From Peloplasma aerotolerans (GTDB taxonomy: Bacteria > Bacillota_I > Bacilli_A > Acholeplasmatales > Acholeplasmataceae): 64,000 nt of DNA. The notes beneath the pieces were generated by a model that was not told the origin of the DNA, did no database searches, and was given only the letters and a program-made list of their open reading frames with translations. The stretch spans positions 1 to 64,000 of the forward strand of contig NZ_JASCXW010000001.1 in NCBI RefSeq assembly GCF_030012175.1. The letters run 5' to 3'. Of the stretch, positions 8,744-25,622 are shown piece after piece (within the stretch, counting starts at the first letter, position 1; each line of letters begins with the position of its first letter). The position numbers were made by a program, and so were the translations under genes.

Positions 8744-9769
8744 ATGGCTAATTATGGTATAGCAATTATTGGTTATGGTGGTATCGGTGCATATCATGCA
8801 GAACATATTATAAATACAAAAAGCTTAAGGTTGAAAGGTATTTTCGATATTAAAAAAGACAGAAATGATTTAGCCAAGTCTAAAAACATTCATGTTTATG
8901 AATCACTCGATCATTTGTTGCATGATTTAACTGTTGATATAGTGCTAATTGCTACACCAAATGATTCTCATTATGAGCTTGTCATGCATTCGCTCCATGC
9001 GAATAAACACGTCATATGTGAAAAACCAGTCACTTTATCAACCAAATTATTCGATGAAATGTCTTTTTTATCACAAAAGCAAAAAAGGGAGCTCATCGTT
9101 CATCAAAATAGAAGATGGGACTCTGATTTCTTAACCGTAAAAAAAATAATAGATTCTCACTTAATAGGTGAGGTTTTTCATATTGAATCTCGTGTACATG
9201 GGGGCAATGGTATTCCTGGCGACTGGAGACGTAAAAGAGATCAAGGTGGGGGAATGCTTTATGATTGGGGTGTTCACCTCATTGACCAAATCATGTTATT
9301 GAAAGATGCAAAGATAATAAAATATTCAATTGATTTCTCAACAATTTTGGGACATGAAGTAGATGATGGATTTTTATTACATCTTTATTTCGATGATTCA
9401 ACAGATGTTCTTATTGAAGTTCAAACAACTAATTTTATTAAGTTACCGAGATGGTATGTTAAAGGATTGAATGGGACTGCAATAATAAACGATTGGAACT
9501 TAGATGGATATATCAATCAACTTATTTTACCACTTGAAGAAACCCATAGCCAAACTGTAAAAGCAGGTAATGGATTAACAAAAACAATGGCACCCCCTTC
9601 TGAGGATGCCATCAATAAGATGAAATTACCACCTATATTAGTTGAACCTAATGTTTTTTATGAACATGTTTGTAATGTGTTGGAAAAAAAAGAATCACTA
9701 TCTATTACACATGGACAAATTAGAGTAGTACTTTCTTTAATCGAAAATCTGATGAATACTAGAGTTTAA
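8744..9769 (+). CDS. Gfo/Idh/MocA family oxidoreductase (second paralogue)
   Basis: A 341-residue oxidoreductase with an N-terminal Rossmann fold (IAIIGYGGIGAYHA), EKP motif at residues 93-95, and a C-terminal domain with YDWGVHLID carrying the conserved His and Asp. It follows the TIM-barrel gene by three bases. It has clearly diverged from the paralogue at 6680, so the two probably act at different steps (for instance oxidation of one sugar carbon and re-reduction later). A hairpin terminator follows its stop codon, closing the unit. Substrate unknown. Confidence 0.87.
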   Translation: MANYGIAIIGYGGIGAYHAEHIINTKSLRLKGIFDIKKDRNDLAKSKNIHVYESLDHLLHDLTVDIVLIATPNDSHYELVMHSLHANKHVICEKPVTLSTKLFDEMSFLSQKQKRELIVHQNRRWDSDFLTVKKIIDSHLIGEVFHIESRVHGGNGIPGDWRRKRDQGGGMLYDWGVHLIDQIMLLKDAKIIKYSIDFSTILGHEVDDGFLLHLYFDDSTDVLIEVQTTNFIKLPRWYVKGLNGTAIINDWNLDGYINQLILPLEETHSQTVKAGNGLTKTMAPPSEDAINKMKLPPILVEPNVFYEHVCNVLEKKESLSITHGQIRVVLSLIENLMNTRV

Positions 9770-9771
9770 AC

Positions 9772-9800
9772 GATAAGATGCTCGTGGCATCTTATTTTTT
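9772..9800 (+). terminator. Bidirectional intrinsic terminator
   Basis: Stem GATAAGATGC pairs with GCATCTTAT around a short loop, followed by a T-run on the plus strand. It sits between convergent genes (oxidoreductase on plus, P-loop protein on minus), and the stem has some A bases on the other side, so it may serve both. Confidence 0.8.
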
Positions 9801-11507
9801 AAAACTTGTCTTCAAGTATTCCATTAACTTTCTAGCTGCCTTGACTGTGCCAATGCCTTCTTGACCAGGTACTGCAAGTTGTGTGTATATTTCTCCAACT
9901 TTAACTTTTTGTTGATAAAGGACATTGAAATACTCAACTAAAATCTTATCAGTTTGTTCCATGCGTTGCACTGGACCAAAAGGATTTGCGAAGTAACTTT
10001 CAACTAAACCAACTTCGCTTGTTGTTCCCTTAGCAAATCTTTGACCACGTCTAAAGACTTCTAGTGCATCTTCAATATGATCAAAGAATCTAACACCTTC
10101 ATCAGTTTCATTGTAATTATTTGCATATAATAAGTAATCTACTTTGTGGTTCATCATAATAAACTTATAATAGGAAACCGGAAGAATGACTCTTGCATTC
10201 GTTTGATCAGGATTCATAAAGATAGAGCGATCAATTTCTTGATATGCATAGCCACTATCTAGGTCATCTAATCTAACAAATGCACCGATTTCTGTACCAT
10301 GAGCATATAATTTCTTACCATCGATGATAAAGGTTCCCATATCATCGAAAATAACATTCATGGTTTTAATATATTCTTTACCAATTTGTCTTAAGGCTTC
10401 AAGTGTTTCAGATTTACCTGCACCACTATCACCAATCACGACGATATTTCTTTCTTCATCATTATTTAATACAACATTTACCATTGCACCATGGATTGGT
10501 AAATAGTTACGATCTATCATTCTAACGTTATGTAGGGTGAGTAACATTTTCTTTAAATAACCAAAATAATCGTTTTTTGTGTTTCTTGAAACAAAGCCGA
10601 TATATAAATCTTCTTCCTTGTCATGATAATACTTGCCATCAAATTGTTCTTCTCTAATTCCGTAAACATAAACTAACTCAGGTTTACGATCTTTATAGTC
10701 ATCATAAATAGCAGGTTCAAATAAATTACTTAAGGCTACGCCATGATGCATAAAGTCACGGTGGAAATAAACAAAAGTGAGTAGAGGTCCTACCCAGACA
10801 GGGTAACAGAAGTAATGCAACTTATTAATACTTAAATCTTTCAATGGATTTTCGAAGATTTCTTGGAAAATCCCCTGTCTTGTATTACTTTGTGAGTAAA
10901 CCATAAAGGGTGGTCTAGTTAGTAGTCTTGTAATAAACCCAACATTTTGAAGACTCGCATACGCTTCACTATACGTAAACCGGTGCGGAACTAACATAAC
11001 ATTCGCATTTACACCTGCAGGAAGCTGACGATAGACCTTAAAATCTTCTCCTAAGAGGTTTTGAGATAATGTTCTATATAGATATAGAATCCGCTCATTA
11101 AAACGGTCAGAGATTGAAATTAGATCAGGTGCTTTTACACTTTGTGCGTAGTTCTTAGAACTACTCATGACACCAAAGCGTTCAAGCTTTCTCCAATAAT
11201 CATAAAACTTTTCAGTAAAATGATAAAAAGTGTCTCTTTGATTTAATAACGTATTTAAGTTGGGATGTTTTTTCTTAACATCTTCATAAGGATAGATGAG
11301 TAAAAGCTTATAAGCATCCAACATCATGGATGCTCTTATGCCTTTTAATCTATCCATCATAGGATCTTTTTCATTCCTTAGTTTTCTAACATATTGGACT
11401 AAGAGTTGTTCAAAACTTTTCGAAGAAATAATTTTGACTTCAGAGTCACATATTGCTGCATCAAAATTTATGATTGCATAGTTTTTTTGTAAATGAAATT
11501 TTTTCAT
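9792..11507 (-). CDS. HPr-kinase/PEPCK-like P-loop protein
   Basis: A 571-residue cytoplasmic protein. The start is placed at 11507 because GGAGGT lies just upstream of MKKFHLQK; seven extra in-frame codons upstream are unlikely. A Walker A motif GDSGAGKS (residues 359-366) and the downstream VIFDDMGTF segment match the HPr kinase/phosphorylase and PEP-carboxykinase-like P-loop fold, in which GDSGxGKSE is characteristic. The N-terminal 350 residues were not recognised and have no counterpart in ordinary HprK (about 310 residues). A kinase for an unknown substrate, or an ATP-type PEPCK relative, are both possible. HPr itself is encoded at 46662, but a functional link is only a guess. A minus-strand promoter lies at 11530-11557. 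Confidence 0.65.
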   Translation of the reverse strand: MKKFHLQKNYAIINFDAAICDSEVKIISSKSFEQLLVQYVRKLRNEKDPMMDRLKGIRASMMLDAYKLLLIYPYEDVKKKHPNLNTLLNQRDTFYHFTEKFYDYWRKLERFGVMSSSKNYAQSVKAPDLISISDRFNERILYLYRTLSQNLLGEDFKVYRQLPAGVNANVMLVPHRFTYSEAYASLQNVGFITRLLTRPPFMVYSQSNTRQGIFQEIFENPLKDLSINKLHYFCYPVWVGPLLTFVYFHRDFMHHGVALSNLFEPAIYDDYKDRKPELVYVYGIREEQFDGKYYHDKEEDLYIGFVSRNTKNDYFGYLKKMLLTLHNVRMIDRNYLPIHGAMVNVVLNNDEERNIVVIGDSGAGKSETLEALRQIGKEYIKTMNVIFDDMGTFIIDGKKLYAHGTEIGAFVRLDDLDSGYAYQEIDRSIFMNPDQTNARVILPVSYYKFIMMNHKVDYLLYANNYNETDEGVRFFDHIEDALEVFRRGQRFAKGTTSEVGLVESYFANPFGPVQRMEQTDKILVEYFNVLYQQKVKVGEIYTQLAVPGQEGIGTVKAARKLMEYLKTSFKK

Positions 11508-11529
11508 GCGATACCTCCACATTAGCATT

Positions 11530-11557
11530 ATTATACCATAGTTAAAACAAGGTTAAA
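11530..11557 (-). promoter_or_regulatory. Promoter of the P-loop gene
   Basis: On the minus strand a TATAAT box (11530-11535) follows a TTTAAC -35 element (11552-11557) with 16 bases between, just upstream of the GGAGGT ribosome site. Confidence 0.6.
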
Positions 11558-11581
11558 TAATATGGGGATATTTACATCATT

Positions 11582-11607
11582 AAAAAAAAGAAGTGCTTTC
11601 GCACCTC
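11582..11607 (-). terminator. Terminator of the GNAT-like gene
   Basis: On the minus strand GAGGTGC-GAAA-GCACTTC forms a hairpin with a GAAA loop followed by a run of Ts, immediately after the stop codon at 11608. Confidence 0.85.
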
Positions 11608-12726
11608 TTAAATTGATTTTGTATAACAACGTCTACGCTTATGTTCAACCCATTCAAAATCTTTCCATTGGTTTTGAATTGCTACGTTTAATTCAAGCTC
11701 TGGACCGGTTTCTGCATATTTTACATTGTGTTTAATTCCGGTTTCAATACCATCTTCCCAAATCATCGCGATAATACCATGTCCTTGATGTTTAGGGTCG
11801 ATTGCGATGAAGTAGAGATCAATGACATCGTATTTCTTTAAACCTCTTAAAACTCTGAACCAACCAAATGGAAATAATTTTCCTTTGTTCTTTTTGTTTG
11901 CTTCAGCTAAGCTCGGCATCACGACTGTTAATGCCACCACTTTATCTTCTTTATCTAGGACTAACCAAATATATTCTAGTTGAACCATAGAGATGACTTG
12001 CTTAATGTAGTAGTCCATGACTTTATTGGTGATCGGATAAAATCCATATAATTCATTAAATGCGACATTAAACATATCGAAAGCTTCATAAATATATTTA
12101 AAGATTTCTTTTTTCTTTTTAAACTTAAGCAAACGATATCCATATCTACGTCTTGCGATTTCTGCACCACGTCTAACTTTTTCGGAAACCTCACTTGGCC
12201 ATTTGATTTGTTTTTCTGTCCAATCAACATCTTTAACAAATCCTAAGGCTTCTAAATGTTTCATATAATAAGGATGATTATAAATCGTAATAAACATATT
12301 TAATTGATCAAATCCATCAACGAGCATGCCCTGGCGATCCAAATCCGTAAATCCAATCGGTCCAATTAAAGTATCCATTCCTTTTTCTTTTGCCCAAGTA
12401 GTTACTTGTTCAATTAAAGCTTTCGTTACTTCAAGATCATCAATCATATCGATTCTGGTAAATCTAGCTTTTTTAATGTTATAGGCGTTATTCCATTTGT
12501 GGTTAATAATACCAGCAATACGACCTACGATTTTCTTTCCATCATATGCTAAATATCTAACAGCATCACAGTACTCAAAGACTGGGTTTTTCTTAGGATT
12601 AAATACTGTTCTTTCATCAAGCGATAACGCTGGAACAAATGCTGGAACTTTCTTGTAAAGTTTATTAGGAAATTCTGTAAAGCGCCAAGCATCACGATTC
12701 GTCTTGACTTCTTTGATTGTTATCAT
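11608..12726 (-). CDS. GNAT-like N-acetyltransferase (YghO-type, about 370 aa)
   Basis: A 372-residue cytoplasmic protein resembling a conserved bacterial family of GNAT-fold proteins (N-terminal FxxxPxxLYKxxPxxVPAL motif, then a region RIAGIINHKWNN, and a C-terminal acetyltransferase half with IDPKHQGHGI as the acyl-CoA-binding loop and ETGPELELN). GAGGTG lies seven bases before ATG 12726. The fold is recognised from the RxxGxG/A-like element QGHGI; substrate is unknown for the family. It is a single-gene unit with its own promoter (12755-12783) divergent from tig and a terminator at its end. Confidence 0.7.
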   Translation of the reverse strand: MITIKEVKTNRDAWRFTEFPNKLYKKVPAFVPALSLDERTVFNPKKNPVFEYCDAVRYLAYDGKKIVGRIAGIINHKWNNAYNIKKARFTRIDMIDDLEVTKALIEQVTTWAKEKGMDTLIGPIGFTDLDRQGMLVDGFDQLNMFITIYNHPYYMKHLEALGFVKDVDWTEKQIKWPSEVSEKVRRGAEIARRRYGYRLLKFKKKKEIFKYIYEAFDMFNVAFNELYGFYPITNKVMDYYIKQVISMVQLEYIWLVLDKEDKVVALTVVMPSLAEANKKNKGKLFPFGWFRVLRGLKKYDVIDLYFIAIDPKHQGHGIIAMIWEDGIETGIKHNVKYAETGPELELNVAIQNQWKDFEWVEHKRRRCYTKSI

Positions 12727-12754
12727 CTAAGGACACCTCATTTCAATTAAGTAT

Positions 12755-12783
12755 ATTTTATCTTAATTTTACAAAATATACAA
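12755..12783 (-). promoter_or_regulatory. Promoter of the GNAT-like gene
   Basis: Minus-strand TTGTAT (12778-12783) and TAAAAT (12755-12760) separated by 17 bases. Confidence 0.55.
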
Positions 12784-12799
12784 TGTTTTGCCAAATGTC

Positions 12800-12827
12800 T
12801 TTAACTAAAAATAAATTATGTTATAAT
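12800..12827 (+). promoter_or_regulatory. Promoter of tig
   Basis: TATAAT at 12822-12827 with a weak TTTAAC -35 element 16 bases upstream; AAAGGAG follows before the tig ATG. Confidence 0.6.
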
Positions 12828-12876
12828 ATAAAAGGTCTATCCACACAAATACGCACGATATAAAGGAGAATTAAAA

Positions 12877-14157
12877 ATGAAAGTAGAACAAACAAAAGAC
12901 AATAAAGTACGTTATACATTCGATGTAACGCCAGAAGAATTTGAACACGGTCTTGACCATGCATTTGAGCATGTTGTCAAAGATGTGGAATTAAAAGGAT
13001 TTAGAAAAGGAAAAGTACCTAGAAATATTTATGAAACGAAATTTGGTGTTGAAACACTCTATGAAGATGCACTCAATCACGTTTTACATCATAAGTATCA
13101 TGAAGCTCAAGAGCATCCAGATTATGAAATCGTAGGTCAACCAGATATTGATGTTGATGTTAAAAGCATTAAACGCGGAGAAACATTTTCAGTAAGTATC
13201 GTTGCTGAAGTTAAACCTGAAGTAACATTAGGCGCATACAAAGGTGTGGAAATCAAAAAAATAGATGCGACTGTTACTGATGAAGATGTTGCAGCAGAAA
13301 TTAAAAAACAAGTTTCTCAAAGCGGTCAATTAGAGCCTAAAGATGGTGTCATTGAACTTGGAGATACAGCAATCTTTGATTTTGAAGGATTTTTGGAAGG
13401 TGTTCCTTTTGAAGGTGGCAAAGCTGAAAATCATTCATTAGAAATTGGTTCAAACCAATTTATTCCAGGATTTGAAGAACAAATGGTAGGCATGAAGTCA
13501 GGTGAAGAAAAAGATATTAACGTTAAATTCCCTGAGCAATACCAAGCAGAAAACTTAGCTGGAAAAGAAGTTGTCTTTAAAATTAAACTTCATGAAGTTA
13601 AAGCTAAAGTTGAAAGTGAATTAAATGATGAATTCGTTCAATCACTTAAAAAAGAAGGTATAACGACTGTTGAACAGTTTAGAGAAGCAACCAAAAAAGA
13701 ATTAGAAGAAAAAAGACAAGCAGATGCAGATAATCAAATGACAAACGAATTATTAACAAAAGTTATTGATGGAGCAAATGTTGAAATTCCTCAAGTGATG
13801 ATTGATGAAGAAATTAAGCAAGCAAAAGCAAACGTTGAACAACAAGCAAAACAATATGGACTAGAAATGGATATGTTCTTATCGATGTCAGGTGTGACAC
13901 CTGAACAGTTTGAAGTACAAATCGCTGAAGAATCTAAAAAACGTGTACAAACGACTTTAGTCATTGAAGCCATTGCAAAAGCTGAAGGCTTATCTGCAAC
14001 TGAAGCAGAAGTTAATGAAAAGTATGAAGAACTTGCAAAACGCTACAACATGCCTGTTGAAGAAGTTAAAAAGTATCTACCTGCAAACATCTTAACAAGT
14101 GATGTTGTCTTGAATAAAGCATACAAATTTGTTATTGATTCTGCAGTAAAAGTTTAA
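12877..14157 (+). CDS. tig: Trigger factor (ribosome-associated chaperone)
   Basis: A 426-residue trigger factor, the usual length. The N-terminal ribosome-binding domain contains the GFRKGKVPR signature loop (residues about 42-50) that docks on ribosomal protein L23. The FKBP-type peptidyl-prolyl isomerase domain follows (about 155-240: GDTAIFDFEGFLEG, GSNQFIPGFEEQMVGM), then the helical C-terminal chaperone arms. It starts at ATG 12877 after AAAGGAG. It is followed by a hairpin and then by lon, the common tig-lon-engB arrangement of Firmicutes. It folds nascent chains at the ribosome exit tunnel. Confidence 0.97.
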   Translation: MKVEQTKDNKVRYTFDVTPEEFEHGLDHAFEHVVKDVELKGFRKGKVPRNIYETKFGVETLYEDALNHVLHHKYHEAQEHPDYEIVGQPDIDVDVKSIKRGETFSVSIVAEVKPEVTLGAYKGVEIKKIDATVTDEDVAAEIKKQVSQSGQLEPKDGVIELGDTAIFDFEGFLEGVPFEGGKAENHSLEIGSNQFIPGFEEQMVGMKSGEEKDINVKFPEQYQAENLAGKEVVFKIKLHEVKAKVESELNDEFVQSLKKEGITTVEQFREATKKELEEKRQADADNQMTNELLTKVIDGANVEIPQVMIDEEIKQAKANVEQQAKQYGLEMDMFLSMSGVTPEQFEVQIAEESKKRVQTTLVIEAIAKAEGLSATEAEVNEKYEELAKRYNMPVEEVKKYLPANILTSDVVLNKAYKFVIDSAVKV

Positions 14158-14187
14158 AAAAGGGGACTTCGTTCCCTTCTTTAAAAA
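14157..14187 (+). terminator. Terminator after tig
   Basis: An AAGGGGA / TCCCTT hairpin closed by a CTTCG-type loop directly after the tig stop codon, with a short weak T-rich tail. Confidence 0.7.
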
Positions 14188-14194
14188 AAATGAA

Positions 14195-14221
14195 TTGGCA
14201 CTCATGTGTTATGATTGCAAA
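14195..14221 (+). promoter_or_regulatory. CIRCE operator (HrcA site) upstream of lon
   Basis: TTGGCACTC, nine bases, GATTGCAAA. This matches the CIRCE consensus TTAGCACTC-N9-GAGTGCTAA at eight of nine positions in the left arm and seven of nine in the right. It overlaps the -35 box of the lon promoter (14215-14220), a position at which bound HrcA repressor would block transcription. HrcA-controlled lon is known from mycoplasmas. Confidence 0.75.
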
Positions 14222-14242
14222 TTTATCAATATATGCTATAAT
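14215..14242 (+). promoter_or_regulatory. Promoter of lon
   Basis: TTGCAA (14215-14220), 16-base spacer, TATAAT (14237-14242). The -35 box lies inside the right arm of the CIRCE element. Confidence 0.75.
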
Positions 14243-14274
14243 ATGATTGAATAATGTGAAGGATGTGAAAAGAC

Positions 14275-16584
14275 ATGGAACTATCAAAAAGCCTACCTGC
14301 GATTATCGTTCGTGGAACGGTACCAATCCCAAATAACGACTTTAGAATTGAAGTCGGTAGAAAAGTATCACTTAAAGCAGTTGAAGAGGCTGAAAAAAAC
14401 TTCGGATCCTATGCAATTGTCTTAATTCAAAAAAACCCGATGATTGAAAACCCTACTGTTGAAGATATCGAAGAGTATGGGACACTCGTTAAGGTACAAA
14501 TGAAGATTAAATTGCCTAATGATGCCTATAAAGTAAAATTATCAGTCATCCAACGTATAAAGGTCAAAGAGTATTTTCTTACAGACCCTTATTTCGTTGT
14601 GGAATATGAGGAAAAAAATACGATTAATGGTGATGTTGACGAAGAAGTTACTTTAGTCAAGATGATTGTTACTGAAGTTGCTAATCATGCACAAACCATT
14701 TTAAACCCTAATAATCAAGTTCTAGAGAAAGTACAACAAGGACTAACGAGTGAAAAAGTTTGTGACTTGGTGATTTTCAACTTAAAATCACCAGAACAAA
14801 CCAAATATCGTTATTTAGAAGAACTTCATTTGAATAAACGCTTAAGAATGCTGTTAGAAGATATTAATAAACAAAAGATGATTGTTGATCTTGAACAAAA
14901 GATTAATGATGAAATCAAAAAGTCTATTGATGAAAACCAAAAAGAGTATTACTTAAGAGAAAAAATGAGAGCCATTCAAAATGAATTAGGCGATAAAGCG
15001 AAAAAAGAAGAAGAAATTGATGAATTAAGAAAAAAGATTTTGGCAGCGAAGATGCCAAAAGCAATTGAAGAAAAAGCGCTTCAGGAACTTAGTCGCTTTC
15101 AAAGTACACCAGCAGCAATGGCAGAATCTAGTATTATCAAAACTTACTTAGATTTATTGGTCGAACTTCCTTGGAAAAAATCATCTAAAGATACTGCTGA
15201 TTTAAATAAAGTACAACAAAAGCTAGATGAAAACCATTATGGCTTAGAAAAAGTTAAAGAAAGAATTATAGAATATCTTGCTGTTAAAGTAATGACGAAG
15301 AGAAATCCACAGACGATTTTATGTCTTGTAGGACCTCCAGGTGTCGGAAAGACGTCATTAGCAATTAGTATTGCTGAAGCCTTAAATAGAAAATTTGTGA
15401 AGCAATCACTTGGTGGTGTTAGAGATGAATCAGAGATTCGTGGGCATAGAAGAACTTATATTGGCGCAATGCCTGGACGCATTATTAAAGGTATGAAAGA
15501 TGCGAAGACAGTTAACCCTGTTTTCTTATTAGATGAAATTGATAAGATGTCATCAGATTTCAAGGGAGACCCTGCATCAGCAATGCTTGAAGTCTTAGAT
15601 CCAGAGCAAAATGCTAATTTTAGTGATCACTATCTTGAAGAACCTTATGATTTATCACAAGTTTTATTTATTACAACAGCAAACTATTTAGAAAATGTAC
15701 CTGCACCACTTAGAGATAGAATGGAAATCGTTGAACTATCATCTTATACAGAACAAGAAAAATTCCAAATTGCCCGTCGTCATTTACTTGCGAAGCAATT
15801 AAAGAGTCACGGAATCAATGATAAGCAATTTTCAATTGATGATAAATCTATTTTCTATATTATCCAACACTATACAAGAGAAGCTGGTGTTCGTGAACTT
15901 AATCGCTTTATTGGAGCGTTAGTTCGTAAAGCAATTAAAGAGATATTATTAACGAAGAAACCTAGTATTGCAGTTACACCTGAAAATATTGAATCTTATA
16001 TTGGTAAACCTAAATATGTTCATAATATCGCAGATAAGAAAGAACAAATTGGGGTAGCTACTGGTTTAGCTTATACACAATTTGGTGGAGATACACTGCC
16101 TGTTGAAGTCACCTATTACAAAGGTAAAGGTAACTTAGTGTTAACTGGTAAACTCGGTGATGTTATGAAGGAAAGTGCTCAAACAGCATTAAGCTTTATT
16201 AAATCAAAAGCTTTAGAGTTTGATATCGATCCAGATATCTTTAACAATAACGACTTCCATATTCACGTACCTGAAGGTGCAATTCCAAAAGATGGACCTT
16301 CTGCAGGGATAACAATCGCAACAGCTATTGTATCCGCTGCTACTCAAAAGTATGTGAAAAAAGATGTTGGTATGACCGGAGAAATCACACTACGTGGATA
16401 TGTTCTACCTATAGGTGGATTAAAAGAAAAAGCGATTGCAGCACACAGAAGTGGATTAAAAGTTATACTCATTCCTAAAGATAATGAAAAGGATATCGAT
16501 GATATCCCTCAAGAAGTTAGAGATGAGTTAGAAATCATCACTGTTCAAAATGTGAATGATGTCTTCCAATACGCGATTAAATAA
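14275..16584 (+). CDS. lon: ATP-dependent protease Lon
   Basis: A 769-residue LonA-type protease. The N-terminal substrate-binding domain (about 1-200) is followed by a coiled helical region. The AAA+ module has Walker A GPPGVGKT (353-360) and Walker B VFLLDEIDKM. The proteolytic domain carries the Ser-Lys dyad: Ser676 in DGPSAG and Lys719 in IGGLKEK. It degrades misfolded and regulatory proteins in the cytoplasm. The promoter overlaps a CIRCE operator, so heat-shock control by HrcA is likely. A strong intrinsic terminator follows. Confidence 0.98.
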   Translation: MELSKSLPAIIVRGTVPIPNNDFRIEVGRKVSLKAVEEAEKNFGSYAIVLIQKNPMIENPTVEDIEEYGTLVKVQMKIKLPNDAYKVKLSVIQRIKVKEYFLTDPYFVVEYEEKNTINGDVDEEVTLVKMIVTEVANHAQTILNPNNQVLEKVQQGLTSEKVCDLVIFNLKSPEQTKYRYLEELHLNKRLRMLLEDINKQKMIVDLEQKINDEIKKSIDENQKEYYLREKMRAIQNELGDKAKKEEEIDELRKKILAAKMPKAIEEKALQELSRFQSTPAAMAESSIIKTYLDLLVELPWKKSSKDTADLNKVQQKLDENHYGLEKVKERIIEYLAVKVMTKRNPQTILCLVGPPGVGKTSLAISIAEALNRKFVKQSLGGVRDESEIRGHRRTYIGAMPGRIIKGMKDAKTVNPVFLLDEIDKMSSDFKGDPASAMLEVLDPEQNANFSDHYLEEPYDLSQVLFITTANYLENVPAPLRDRMEIVELSSYTEQEKFQIARRHLLAKQLKSHGINDKQFSIDDKSIFYIIQHYTREAGVRELNRFIGALVRKAIKEILLTKKPSIAVTPENIESYIGKPKYVHNIADKKEQIGVATGLAYTQFGGDTLPVEVTYYKGKGNLVLTGKLGDVMKESAQTALSFIKSKALEFDIDPDIFNNNDFHIHVPEGAIPKDGPSAGITIATAIVSAATQKYVKKDVGMTGEITLRGYVLPIGGLKEKAIAAHRSGLKVILIPKDNEKDIDDIPQEVRDELEIITVQNVNDVFQYAIK

Positions 16585-17354: not shown

Positions 17355-18167
17355 ATGTTTTTTCCATATTCTTTTATGTGTAAAGTCAAGCTATTTTTTA
17401 ATCAAATTGATTACGACTATTCAAAACAAGTTACTCTTCATGACCTATATGATTCAACTGTGAATACATTAGTAAAATTAAAATATATCACTGATATCAA
17501 TCTGGTCATAAATGATTATAAATATATCATAAAAAAAATCCGTAGAATAAATCGTGTATTAAAAAACAATCGAGAGAAATTCAATTTGATTGAAACCAAT
17601 GAAACGCAAACTTTATTTGAAAGATTTGACAGTAAAGAAAACATAGTAGTAACTAATATTTTGAACAAAAATATTAAAAAATTCAGTTTTTTTGAAGCAA
17701 ACGAATATAATATGACTGACAAATTTGATTTCATATTTTCTAAAAAGAGATACTATGTGTATAGCGACTATGAGTATTTTGGAACATTTAGAAAAGGTAA
17801 ATATATAATACATGATATTAATAAAAACTGTATTTTTAAAATACGGATCAAAAAACATATGAGTGATAACTCACTAAAACTAGAAAATTTGATTAATAAT
17901 GAATATTCACTTAAAGAAAAAAATGATTTCATTGATCTATATGACAAAACATTTGATGACAAAGATGAATTTGCAACCATTCAATGTGATATTTTAAAAG
18001 AAAAGTTATATCATAAAATTTCAGCATCATTGTGGTTGTATGATAATAATTACTACGAAATCTCAATGTTGTTAACCCTAGGAATATGTTTACTCTACAT
18101 TGATTACTTCAAGACTTTAGATATGAAAATCAAAATGATAATGGCTACAGCAATTTCAAATAATTAA
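17355..18167 (+). CDS. Hypothetical protein, very AT-rich
   Basis: A 270-residue protein of unknown function. TAAAGGAGATTGTT before ATG 17355 is a good ribosome site. The composition is unusually Asn/Lys/Tyr/Ile-rich compared with neighbours. Residues about 125-190 contain a run of short strands (YYVYSDYEYFGTF, KYIIHDINKN) that faintly recall tubby-like/scramblase (LURP-type) proteins, and the C-terminus has a hydrophobic helix (ISMLLTLGICLLYIDYF). Neither is enough for a family call. It sits with the Imm5-like gene between engB and the valS T-box, a short stretch with accessory character. Confidence 0.55.
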   Translation: MFFPYSFMCKVKLFFNQIDYDYSKQVTLHDLYDSTVNTLVKLKYITDINLVINDYKYIIKKIRRINRVLKNNREKFNLIETNETQTLFERFDSKENIVVTNILNKNIKKFSFFEANEYNMTDKFDFIFSKKRYYVYSDYEYFGTFRKGKYIIHDINKNCIFKIRIKKHMSDNSLKLENLINNEYSLKEKNDFIDLYDKTFDDKDEFATIQCDILKEKLYHKISASLWLYDNNYYEISMLLTLGICLLYIDYFKTLDMKIKMIMATAISNN

Positions 18168-23377: not shown

Positions 23378-23410
23378 AAACACCGTCAAACATAATTTCG
23401 GTGTTTTATT
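23378..23410 (+). terminator. Terminator after folC
   Basis: AAACACCG pairs with CGGTGTTT around a 13-base loop, followed by TTATTG. Confidence 0.75.
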
Positions 23411-23411
23411 G

Positions 23412-23439
23412 TTGCATTATTACGATATGATGGTATAAT
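23412..23439 (+). promoter_or_regulatory. Promoter of the ATPase/CEGxxE cassette
   Basis: TTGCAT (23412-23417), 16-base spacer, TATAAT (23434-23439). It gives the two-gene cassette its own transcription start after the folC terminator. Confidence 0.65.
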
Positions 23440-23497
23440 ATGCATATATATACAGATTTTGCGTATTTTTGCGAATTTTATAATTGGGGTGTGAGTT

Positions 23498-24751
23498 ATG
23501 GAAAATTATACAAATCTACTATTTGTGGAGATTAAGGGATTGTCCTCTTATAAGGATGATGTTTTTACTTTTGATTTTTTGAATAAAAAGAATGCTACAT
23601 TTAATGATGGTGAATTAAAGACAATTATTAACAATATATATGTTCCTACAGTCATAGGTATAATAGGTAGTAATGCTTCAGGAAAAACCACAGCAATTAA
23701 CATTCTAAAATGGATAGTTGATCTCTATATCAATGGTAAAGATGTCCTTCAGAGGATTAAAGATATCACCTCTACTAATTCAACACTTTATGTAGATGTG
23801 ATCTTGGCAAGACATGAAATATTTAATCATGTCGCGAACTACAAAACTACGATTAAACACGATGAAGATGGTTTATACATCAAAGATGAAGCTGTATATT
23901 TTAAAGATTTAAGTTCTAGATTTACACGTCACTCAATTCTTGATTTTGACGAATCTTACGGTACAAAATTTAATCGTGATATATTCAAAAAGCTGAAACT
24001 AGATGGTAAAACCATAACCGACGAAAACATACTAAAATCTATGGTTTTGCAAAAAACTGAAAGCATAGCCAGACGATTTTCAAGTCCAGATAATATTGCA
24101 TCACATTTTATAACTGCACTTAACAAAGATAAGTTACCATCATTTGATACAATCTCTAACAAACTGATTCAATACTTGGATCAATCCATTAAAAACATTG
24201 AACTCATAGACACGGGAAACCCTAAATTGGATGGTTCTATTTATAAAGCAACTTTTGTTGATGGAAGAGAATATATTGATACTGCACAAAATTTGTCGAG
24301 AATCCTATCATCTGGAACAAATCGAGGAATTCGTCTATTTATGGCAGCAGAACAAACTTTAAAAACTGGTGGTTATCTCTTTGTTGATGAAATAGAAGTC
24401 AGTTTTCATAAAACTCTTGTTATAGATTTAATTAAACTTTTCTATTCAAGACAAACAAATCCCTTTGGTTCAACATTAGTTCTTACGACTCACTACACCG
24501 AAATCATTGACTCCATAAGGAGAACAGATTCTATTTATTTATGTAATAAGTGTGAAAAAGGGAAACTAGAATTAAACTCATATTCTAAATATATAACTAG
24601 AAATGACATAAAGAAAAGCGATCCATATCTTGCAAATTTGATAGAAGTACCAACCACACCAAGTTATGAAAAGTTCATGTTATACCGTAATACTTTAATA
24701 CAAGAATTAACTCGTGACAAAGATAATCGTGTTGATTCTACTCAACGGTAA
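23498..24751 (+). CDS. AAA_15/OLD-like ATPase, candidate defence protein
   Basis: A 417-residue ABC/SMC-type ATPase of the AAA_15/AAA_21 group used in OLD, RloA/AbiLi, PARIS AriA and related systems. The Walker A motif GSNASGKT is at 57-64 after an N-terminal strand; LSSGTNRGIRLF is the ABC signature-like segment (about 268-279); Walker B is GGYLFVDEIE with Asp297-Glu298; TTHYTEI is the switch His. There is no C-terminal TOPRIM nuclease domain, unlike OLD. The next gene starts seven bases after its stop and probably supplies the effector. GGGGTGTGAG precedes ATG 23498. Codon usage is AT-rich. A role in phage defence is inferred from architecture. Confidence 0.8.
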   Translation: MENYTNLLFVEIKGLSSYKDDVFTFDFLNKKNATFNDGELKTIINNIYVPTVIGIIGSNASGKTTAINILKWIVDLYINGKDVLQRIKDITSTNSTLYVDVILARHEIFNHVANYKTTIKHDEDGLYIKDEAVYFKDLSSRFTRHSILDFDESYGTKFNRDIFKKLKLDGKTITDENILKSMVLQKTESIARRFSSPDNIASHFITALNKDKLPSFDTISNKLIQYLDQSIKNIELIDTGNPKLDGSIYKATFVDGREYIDTAQNLSRILSSGTNRGIRLFMAAEQTLKTGGYLFVDEIEVSFHKTLVIDLIKLFYSRQTNPFGSTLVLTTHYTEIIDSIRRTDSIYLCNKCEKGKLELNSYSKYITRNDIKKSDPYLANLIEVPTTPSYEKFMLYRNTLIQELTRDKDNRVDSTQR

Positions 24752-24757
24752 ATATTT

Positions 24758-25306
24758 ATGAAGGAAATTATAGCTTGCATATGTGAAGGAAGTGCAGAAA
24801 CAGCAATCATAGAGATTTTACTTGATCATGAATTCTTAATATTTAATCGAGATCAATTACTTGATAACGAAATTTTGTCTCAAACATATCGTAATCCAAA
24901 AAACTTTAGAAGGGACTACTTAATTAGACAATTTGAAGAAGACGATGAACTAAAAGTCTATTTAATAGTTGATAGAGTAACCTCATTTAAAATTAAAGAG
25001 CAAATAAGTATCAAGATGACAGTTGAACAGATAATAACAAAACCAGAAATAGAAATTCTTTATATTATCTCAGTTGAAAAGTATAACGAATATACTACAA
25101 AGTATAGTTCAAAAATGACACCAAACGAATATATTAAGCGAATACTAAAAATAAAAGATATCAAGAAGTACGATTTTGTTAAGATGCATTCTAGTGATAT
25201 AGACTTTTTGATAAAAACAATCATTAAGTATCACAGTTACAAAAAAAGCAAGAATAAAGATTTACTGACTCTAATAAGAGCAGAAAAAATAAAGGGTGTC
25301 AGATAA
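24758..25306 (+). CDS. Small CEGxxE (RloB/TOPRIM-like) partner protein
   Basis: A 182-residue protein. The N-terminal strand and motif IACICEGSAE (Cys9, Glu10, Glu14) resembles the CEGxxTE start of RloB/AbiLii-type proteins, and KVYLIVDRV (Asp72) sits where the DxD of a TOPRIM-like fold would be, although the second Asp is Val74 here. The rest is helical and Lys-rich. It follows the ATPase by six bases without a clear ribosome site of its own, so the two are co-translated. It is shorter than known RloB or AriB. It is a plausible effector or nuclease subunit, but the assignment rests on motifs only. Confidence 0.6.
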   Translation: MKEIIACICEGSAETAIIEILLDHEFLIFNRDQLLDNEILSQTYRNPKNFRRDYLIRQFEEDDELKVYLIVDRVTSFKIKEQISIKMTVEQIITKPEIEILYIISVEKYNEYTTKYSSKMTPNEYIKRILKIKDIKKYDFVKMHSSDIDFLIKTIIKYHSYKKSKNKDLLTLIRAEKIKGVR

Positions 25307-25324: not shown

Positions 25325-25352
25325 TTGACATCCTAATAAAAACGTGTATAAT
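25325..25352 (+). promoter_or_regulatory. Promoter of the tryptophan T-box unit
   Basis: TTGACA (25325-25330), 16-base spacer, TATAAT (25347-25352): a near-consensus promoter. Confidence 0.8.
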
Positions 25353-25361
25353 CAAAGTTAA

Positions 25362-25622
25362 ATTCAATGATAAAGAAGAGTACTCTTGAAAAAAGTAGTT
25401 AGCGAACTCGTGATGGTGAAAGACGAGTCTACAACATTTCTTGACGAATGGTCTTTTGAGAAGCAAGGTGAACTATAGTAGCCTTTGCCGTATGCCTACG
25501 TTATCGGGCAAAAATATAAAAGTCTTAAATGATGGAGTATTTTGTTAAAGAAGAAATTCTTATTTCTTAAAAATTGGGTGGCACCACGAGCGATTCGTCC
25601 CATGTAGGCAATCGCTTTTTTT
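25362..25622 (+). promoter_or_regulatory. T-box riboswitch, tryptophan-specific
   Basis: A T-box leader with the specifier TGG (25449-25451) in the context ACGAATGGTC, the T-box core GGGTGGCACCACG, and a terminator GCGATT / AATCGC followed by seven Ts (25590-25622). The discriminator-pairing sequence is UGGC (25579-25582), which pairs with G73, the base found in bacterial tRNA-Trp. Both specificity elements therefore read Trp, matching the trpB gene that follows. Confidence 0.95.

Follow-up and report, generated by a model that had tools for sequence, protein, structure and literature searches.

A two-gene cassette of Peloplasma aerotolerans pairing an AbiLi-type ABC ATPase with a probable Toprim-like effector: a candidate antiphage system

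We analysed a window of 64,000 nucleotides of Peloplasma aerotolerans (contig NZ_JASCXW010000001.1, positions 1 to 64,000), in which two adjacent genes lie among ordinary-looking chromosomal neighbours: valS and folC precede them, and a T-box leader and trpB follow. Both reading frames are intact, lie on the + strand and are separated by 6 nt. The features of the locus are:

23412-23439, + strand: likely cassette promoter, TTGCAT-16-TATAAT with an extended -10 (TGgTATAAT), read by eye
23498-24751, + strand: gene for a 417-aa ABC ATPase of AAA_21 / AbiLi type, intact open reading frame
24758-25306, + strand: gene for a 182-aa partner, predicted to be a probable divergent Toprim-like nuclease effector, intact open reading frame
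25325-25352, + strand: perfect consensus promoter (TTGACA-16-TATAAT) of the downstream T-box/trpB unit, found by consensus scan, outside the cassette
25358-25605, + strand: T-box leader (RF00230, 109.4 bits) before trpB, flanking and outside the cassette

A first-pass annotation of this DNA had described a compact two-gene module between housekeeping units, ending before a T-box promoter, and each of these points agrees with our results. The promoter at 25325-25352 forms the right boundary of the cassette, and the specifier of the T-box is taken to be Trp from the trpB gene that follows. The left boundary is less sharply defined. The claim of a dedicated promoter directly after a folC terminator stands as plausible: the promoter stretch is about 93% identical in a sister genome and a terminator-like stem lies at about 23379-23408, but the promoter is weak and neither signal was called by scan, the promoter having a weak -35 and the stem a loop that exceeds the limit of the terminator scan.

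The upstream gene encodes a Rad50/PtuA/AriA-like ABC ATPase without a Toprim domain. Its chain carries all the elements of a Rad50/OLD-type ABC ATPase, namely Walker A (G57-T64), the signature LSSGT (270-274), Walker B (D297-E298) and a switch histidine (H332), and ten of these residues (G57, N59, G62, K63, S271, G273, T274, D297, E298 and H332) are invariant in eight relatives. While the Walker motifs and the lack of Toprim were thus correctly read at first pass, the assignment to AAA_15 was not, as that score falls below the Pfam cut-off; the domain found over cut-off is AAA_21 (1e-14), and PADLOC models match for AbiLi (2.8e-36) and AriA (6e-15). Matches of the AAA_21/AbiLi/AriA type recur in all eight ATPase relatives tested. 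A structure model of moderate confidence (pLDDT 64), whose sensor part is too uncertain for detail, matches structures of Rad50, PtuA, retron ATPases, OLD and AriA (4.9e-9 to 1e-3), Rad50 at 4.9e-9. The presence of both Rad50 and RecF among these matches, together with the housekeeping surroundings of the window copy, would also suit a RecF/Rad50-like pair for host DNA repair or RNA maintenance with no antiviral role. We regard such a role as most improbable given the patchy occurrence, empty sites, mobile-element carriage and allelic exchange described below.

Members of the partner's family, about 172-189 aa long, share a conserved set of residues, E10, G11, E14, D72, T94, P96, E97, E99 and L101 being invariant or nearly so. 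The features previously noted in the 182-aa window member, a CEGSAE start, E10 and a single Asp72, are all present. E10, which follows a modelled strand at residues 3-9, is invariant in an 18-row family alignment (A3), and all 23 partners compared have D72. The second aspartate of the DxD motif is missing in nearly all partners, the Bifidobacterium copies (DSD) excepted; loss of one DxD aspartate is a trait of the whole family rather than a peculiarity of the window protein.

Library searches returned little for this family. Across the 18 members of alignment A3 there was no convincing match in Pfam or PADLOC, ten rows of a second alignment (A7) had no match in PHROG, and the window protein had none in NCBIfam or in Pfam, RloB (PF13707) included. 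DUF4435 (PF14491) is absent from the partner family and from genome G000, which also has no match to PF20469; HNH models do not match the effector, sequence searches of solved structures yielded no relative of it, and 50,697 phage genome records queried with three different family members gave no match. On sequence grounds, the partner appears to form a family of its own, unnamed in the libraries searched, although this family may already be part of node D60 of NetFlax or of the survey of ABC-ATPase conflict systems by Aravind and colleagues (as cited in PMC12839542). One Ligilactobacillus member (L008:11989-12531, NZ_CP089851.1) is labelled 'N-6 DNA methylase', a probable misannotation.

Several lines of evidence link the family to Toprim. 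A profile of the effector scored 33.7 against RloB/AbiLii, with column shuffles reaching at most 19.0 (n=100), and 26.2 against the Toprim domain of OLD, with shuffles of at most 14.5 (n=60). An AlphaFold model of high confidence (pLDDT 93, pTM 0.88) has its strands and helices arranged in a sequence that would suit a short Toprim fold. The fold comparison proposed at first pass gave no Foldseek match at E 1e-3 (best E 0.079 in PDB and 0.11 in BFVD); second place in the two libraries went to the Toprim effector of retron Eco2 and to an RloB-like protein (E 0.15-0.17). Viral contigs contained no eligible relative of the true RloB kind to serve as a comparison fold. Toprim ancestry is accordingly held to be only probable, since so confident a model lacks a significant structural match, though the profile links exceed all shuffled controls. 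The placement of D72 differs between methods: profile alignments set it opposite the second DxD aspartate or beyond, and predicted secondary structure sets it opposite the first.

In the Toprim site of Bp OLD, metal A is bound directly by E400 and D455 and through waters by D457, while metal B is bound directly by E508 and through waters by E404 (E+4) and T506 (PMC6755086). By a mapping of residues, which is not a superposition, we infer that E10 and D72 correspond to the metal A set, and E14, T94 and E97-E99 to the metal B set, minus one aspartate. The shortened DxD and the lack of a close enzyme in the fold search could instead indicate a degenerate Toprim-like fold without catalysis that serves the ATPase as an adaptor or sensor subunit; Toprim folds without catalysis do exist (CWB2, as cited in PMC6755086). 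This seems quite unlikely to us, as five acidic residues and a threonine are kept in the expected places over deep divergence, which an adaptor would have no obvious need to do, and the second aspartate of Bp OLD touches its metal only through water (PMC6755086). We give even odds to a more specific version of the nuclease reading, in which the partners constitute a minimal Toprim-derived nuclease family with DxD cut to one aspartate and a conserved PExE compensating, acting within an ATPase-gated defence system of its own that plasmids and prophages have carried through Bacillota and Bifidobacterium.

A simpler possibility is that the cassette is plain AbiL, its partner being an ordinary RloB/AbiLii protein. 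The ATPase is AbiLi-like, the AbiLii model finds the window partner weakly (E 0.025), and the layout is the same; moreover, AbiLii partners of the same class that we fetched show the motifs EG.TE..YF, VFD.D and S.PCFE.W, and the two families run parallel in EG..E, one aspartate and xPxxE. Yet all 11 AbiLii partners from related genomes match RloB (PF13707), nearly all with DxD, whereas the RloB model finds one of 18 members of the cassette-partner family, and that one weakly (E 0.011). The latter family is also shorter, as had been remarked of the window protein, at 172-189 aa against about 199-234 aa for AbiLii. Three genomes (G147, G260 and G293) each carry both kinds of partner. On library and motif comparison we rejected plain AbiLii/RloB membership of the partner, and a plain AbiL system is very unlikely.

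The pairing of the two genes is conserved. The ATPase lies directly upstream of the partner on the same strand in 23 of 23 loci readable on both sides. The two genes overlap or stand no more than 11 nt apart except at one locus, where the 68-nt gap is due to the choice of a late start codon. Distance matrices of the two proteins agree (r 0.86, 0 of 2000 permutations), and the arrangement is kept down to 19-30% identity and is therefore not a matter of chance. In one locus (L055, G147:C62:1-4555) the ATPase is intact but the effector frame after it is broken into 81 aa and a second, later fragment, either a decayed copy or an assembly error.

Relatives occur patchily, in 16 of 395 sampled genomes of the class (about 4%). 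Some are plasmid-borne, in Ligilactobacillus and Bifidobacterium, and further ones lie in viral contigs. On two prophage-like contigs (L070, L073) the pair adjoins genes for an HNH protein and a terminase small subunit, and on three others (L071, L072, L075) it lies beside genes for tape measure, integrase or phage DNA polymerase. Defence genes also occur next to it, as occurrences among neighbours chosen by eye and not as a measure of enrichment: one locus reads AbiE, the pair, SIR2-HerA (L044), another has AbiEi and KAP genes nearby (L051), and at a third the neighbours are an AbiLi-like ATPase, whose own partner is unnamed, and an AAA_13/PDC-S06 gene (L053). Several chromosomal copies, that of the window included, stand alone among housekeeping genes. 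Confinement of the homologues to sites outside defence islands, which the first-pass annotation had named, together with no effect on phage, as counting against a defensive role, is thus not what is seen.

Three of these surroundings merit description in their own right. At L053:4569-6645, the second AbiLi-like AAA_21 ATPase is accompanied by a 237-aa partner (VEGPSDENALGPIL) with no Pfam or PADLOC family match, possibly another unnamed Toprim-like effector. On two Bifidobacterium megaplasmids (L009, L010; about 8794-15918) the pair is followed by genes for DUF3841 and a DNA methyltransferase, and the whole may form a larger cluster with a defence or epigenetic role. One copy is immediately followed by a reading frame (L052:9185-9601) in which the unit GPGGGLYT recurs, and which is probably a tandem repeat in translation.

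The same context invites a toxin-antitoxin or addiction module, in which the ATPase would neutralise a small toxin and the pair would persist by addiction rather than by defence. The presence of the pair on plasmids and prophages would fit, as would the neutralisation of Toprim_OLD toxins by such AAA proteins in E. coli (PMC10440598). We consider an addiction module unlikely: in AriAB, a comparable pair, either gene can be deleted without toxicity (PMC9122126), an antitoxin gene of this length would be unusual, and several genomes carry the pair within defence islands. The addiction reading also overlaps with the defence reading, since many such pairs also defend. We favour virus-triggered suicide defence of a new variety, which is probable because relatives are found on plasmids, in prophages and among antiviral genes.

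Comparison with close relatives shows that the window copy is variable both in presence and in sequence. The pair occupies the same position in a sister metagenome-assembled genome (L002, M17C-02; the same locus as G040), while in at least seven congeners folC is joined directly to the T-box and trpB across about 300-400 bp without the cassette. This distribution implies either that the two closest species gained the cassette in their lineage or that the others lost it. In further congeners folC is followed by a PotA-like transporter gene or by genes of other, unrelated kinds, and with such contents, or none, in congeners, we rejected the idea of the folC-trpB interval as a genus-wide defence hotspot. 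Another variable spot of the same housekeeping region is a 270-aa reading frame at 17355-18167 of the window, between a YsxC-like GTPase gene and valS, which is missing in the sister.

Window and sister share 91-95% of nucleotides across folC, the promoter and the initial 65-85 codons of the ATPase. Identity drops to about 74% at 23692 (range 23684-23752), remains reduced as far as the effector's end (25338; range 25334-25347) and is back at 95% in the T-box. A model with two change points gains 151 log units, and dS is 1.3 for the ATPase against 0.33-0.53 for folC, valS and trpB. Because the identity boundary is sharp on two sides and synonymous divergence of the ATPase is raised, allelic replacement is preferred, and simple rapid evolution was rejected as the source of the divergence. 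The likeliest cause, judged from these alignments, is that a divergent allele replaced most of the cassette via recombination in the shared flanks, with a crossover just after Walker A, so that the entire effector would have been exchanged along with the greater part of the ATPase.

We hypothesize that the cassette is a two-gene, stand-alone, AbiL/PARIS-like antiphage system, in which a Toprim-like nuclease of a new effector family is gated by the ATPase; we assign this reading a probability of about 0.65. The two proteins would form a complex in which the ABC ATPase, of Rad50/PtuA/AriA type, acts as both sensor and restraint, its nucleotide-bound form keeping the effector inactive. Upon detection of a phage component or of phage-caused damage, the ATPase would release or activate the effector, a putative metal-dependent nuclease with E10 and D72 at metal A and E14, T94 and E97/E99 at metal B. 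The effector may then cut RNA (e.g. tRNA, like AriB) or DNA, whereby growth would stop and the infected cell would give no phage. Gated release of a suicide nuclease is the most likely working mode by analogy with AriAB and with the AAA neutralisation of Toprim_OLD toxins. If this is correct, present defence finders overlook an effector family, as PADLOC sees the ATPase only, and the family tests whether a Toprim-type nuclease works with a single aspartate for DxD. At about 1.8 kb, the pair is compact enough to be suited to biochemistry of how ABC ATPases restrain and release suicide nucleases.

The kind of system is already known, and it is the effector family that appears unnamed in the libraries searched. 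The suggestion that the pair is a divergent variant of the AbiL/PARIS theme finds good support in family context, mobility and defence-island neighbours, but the partner is neither RloB/AbiLii nor DUF4435. AbiL of Lactococcus (AbiLi ATPase plus AbiLii/RloB) shares the gene order, the AbiLi-type AAA_21 ATPase, the EG..E start and xPxxE motif of the partner and a distant profile similarity; unlike AbiLii, the cassette partner has no RloB match, is smaller, reads PE[IFLM]E in place of S.PCFE and is one DxD aspartate short. PARIS likewise joins an ABC ATPase to a separate nuclease-type effector, AriA and AriB both being required for defence (PMC9122126) and AriB cleaving tRNA via a two-metal Toprim site (PMC12409363). 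The cassette ATPase matches AriA in sequence and structure and supplies the ATPase half (AAA_21) of the PARIS definition, AAA_15/AAA_21 plus DUF4435; with no DUF4435, PARIS membership was rejected. OLD and Gabija GajA share the ATPase fold, and most OLD Toprim metal-ligand positions appear conserved, but in those proteins ATPase and Toprim are fused, whereas the cassette has two separate reading frames, an incomplete DxD and no helicase partner. Septu PtuAB and retron ATPase-HNH modules resemble it in a related ABC ATPase, by structure match, and a small effector gene downstream, and differ in that the cassette effector has no HNH match. Finally, in the NetFlax pair TOPRIM_OLD D60:AAA D29 of Streptococcus agalactiae (PMC10440598), an AAA ATPase neutralises a separate Toprim_OLD protein outside the RloB node D44, and D60, compared here by description only, could be the partner's own family.
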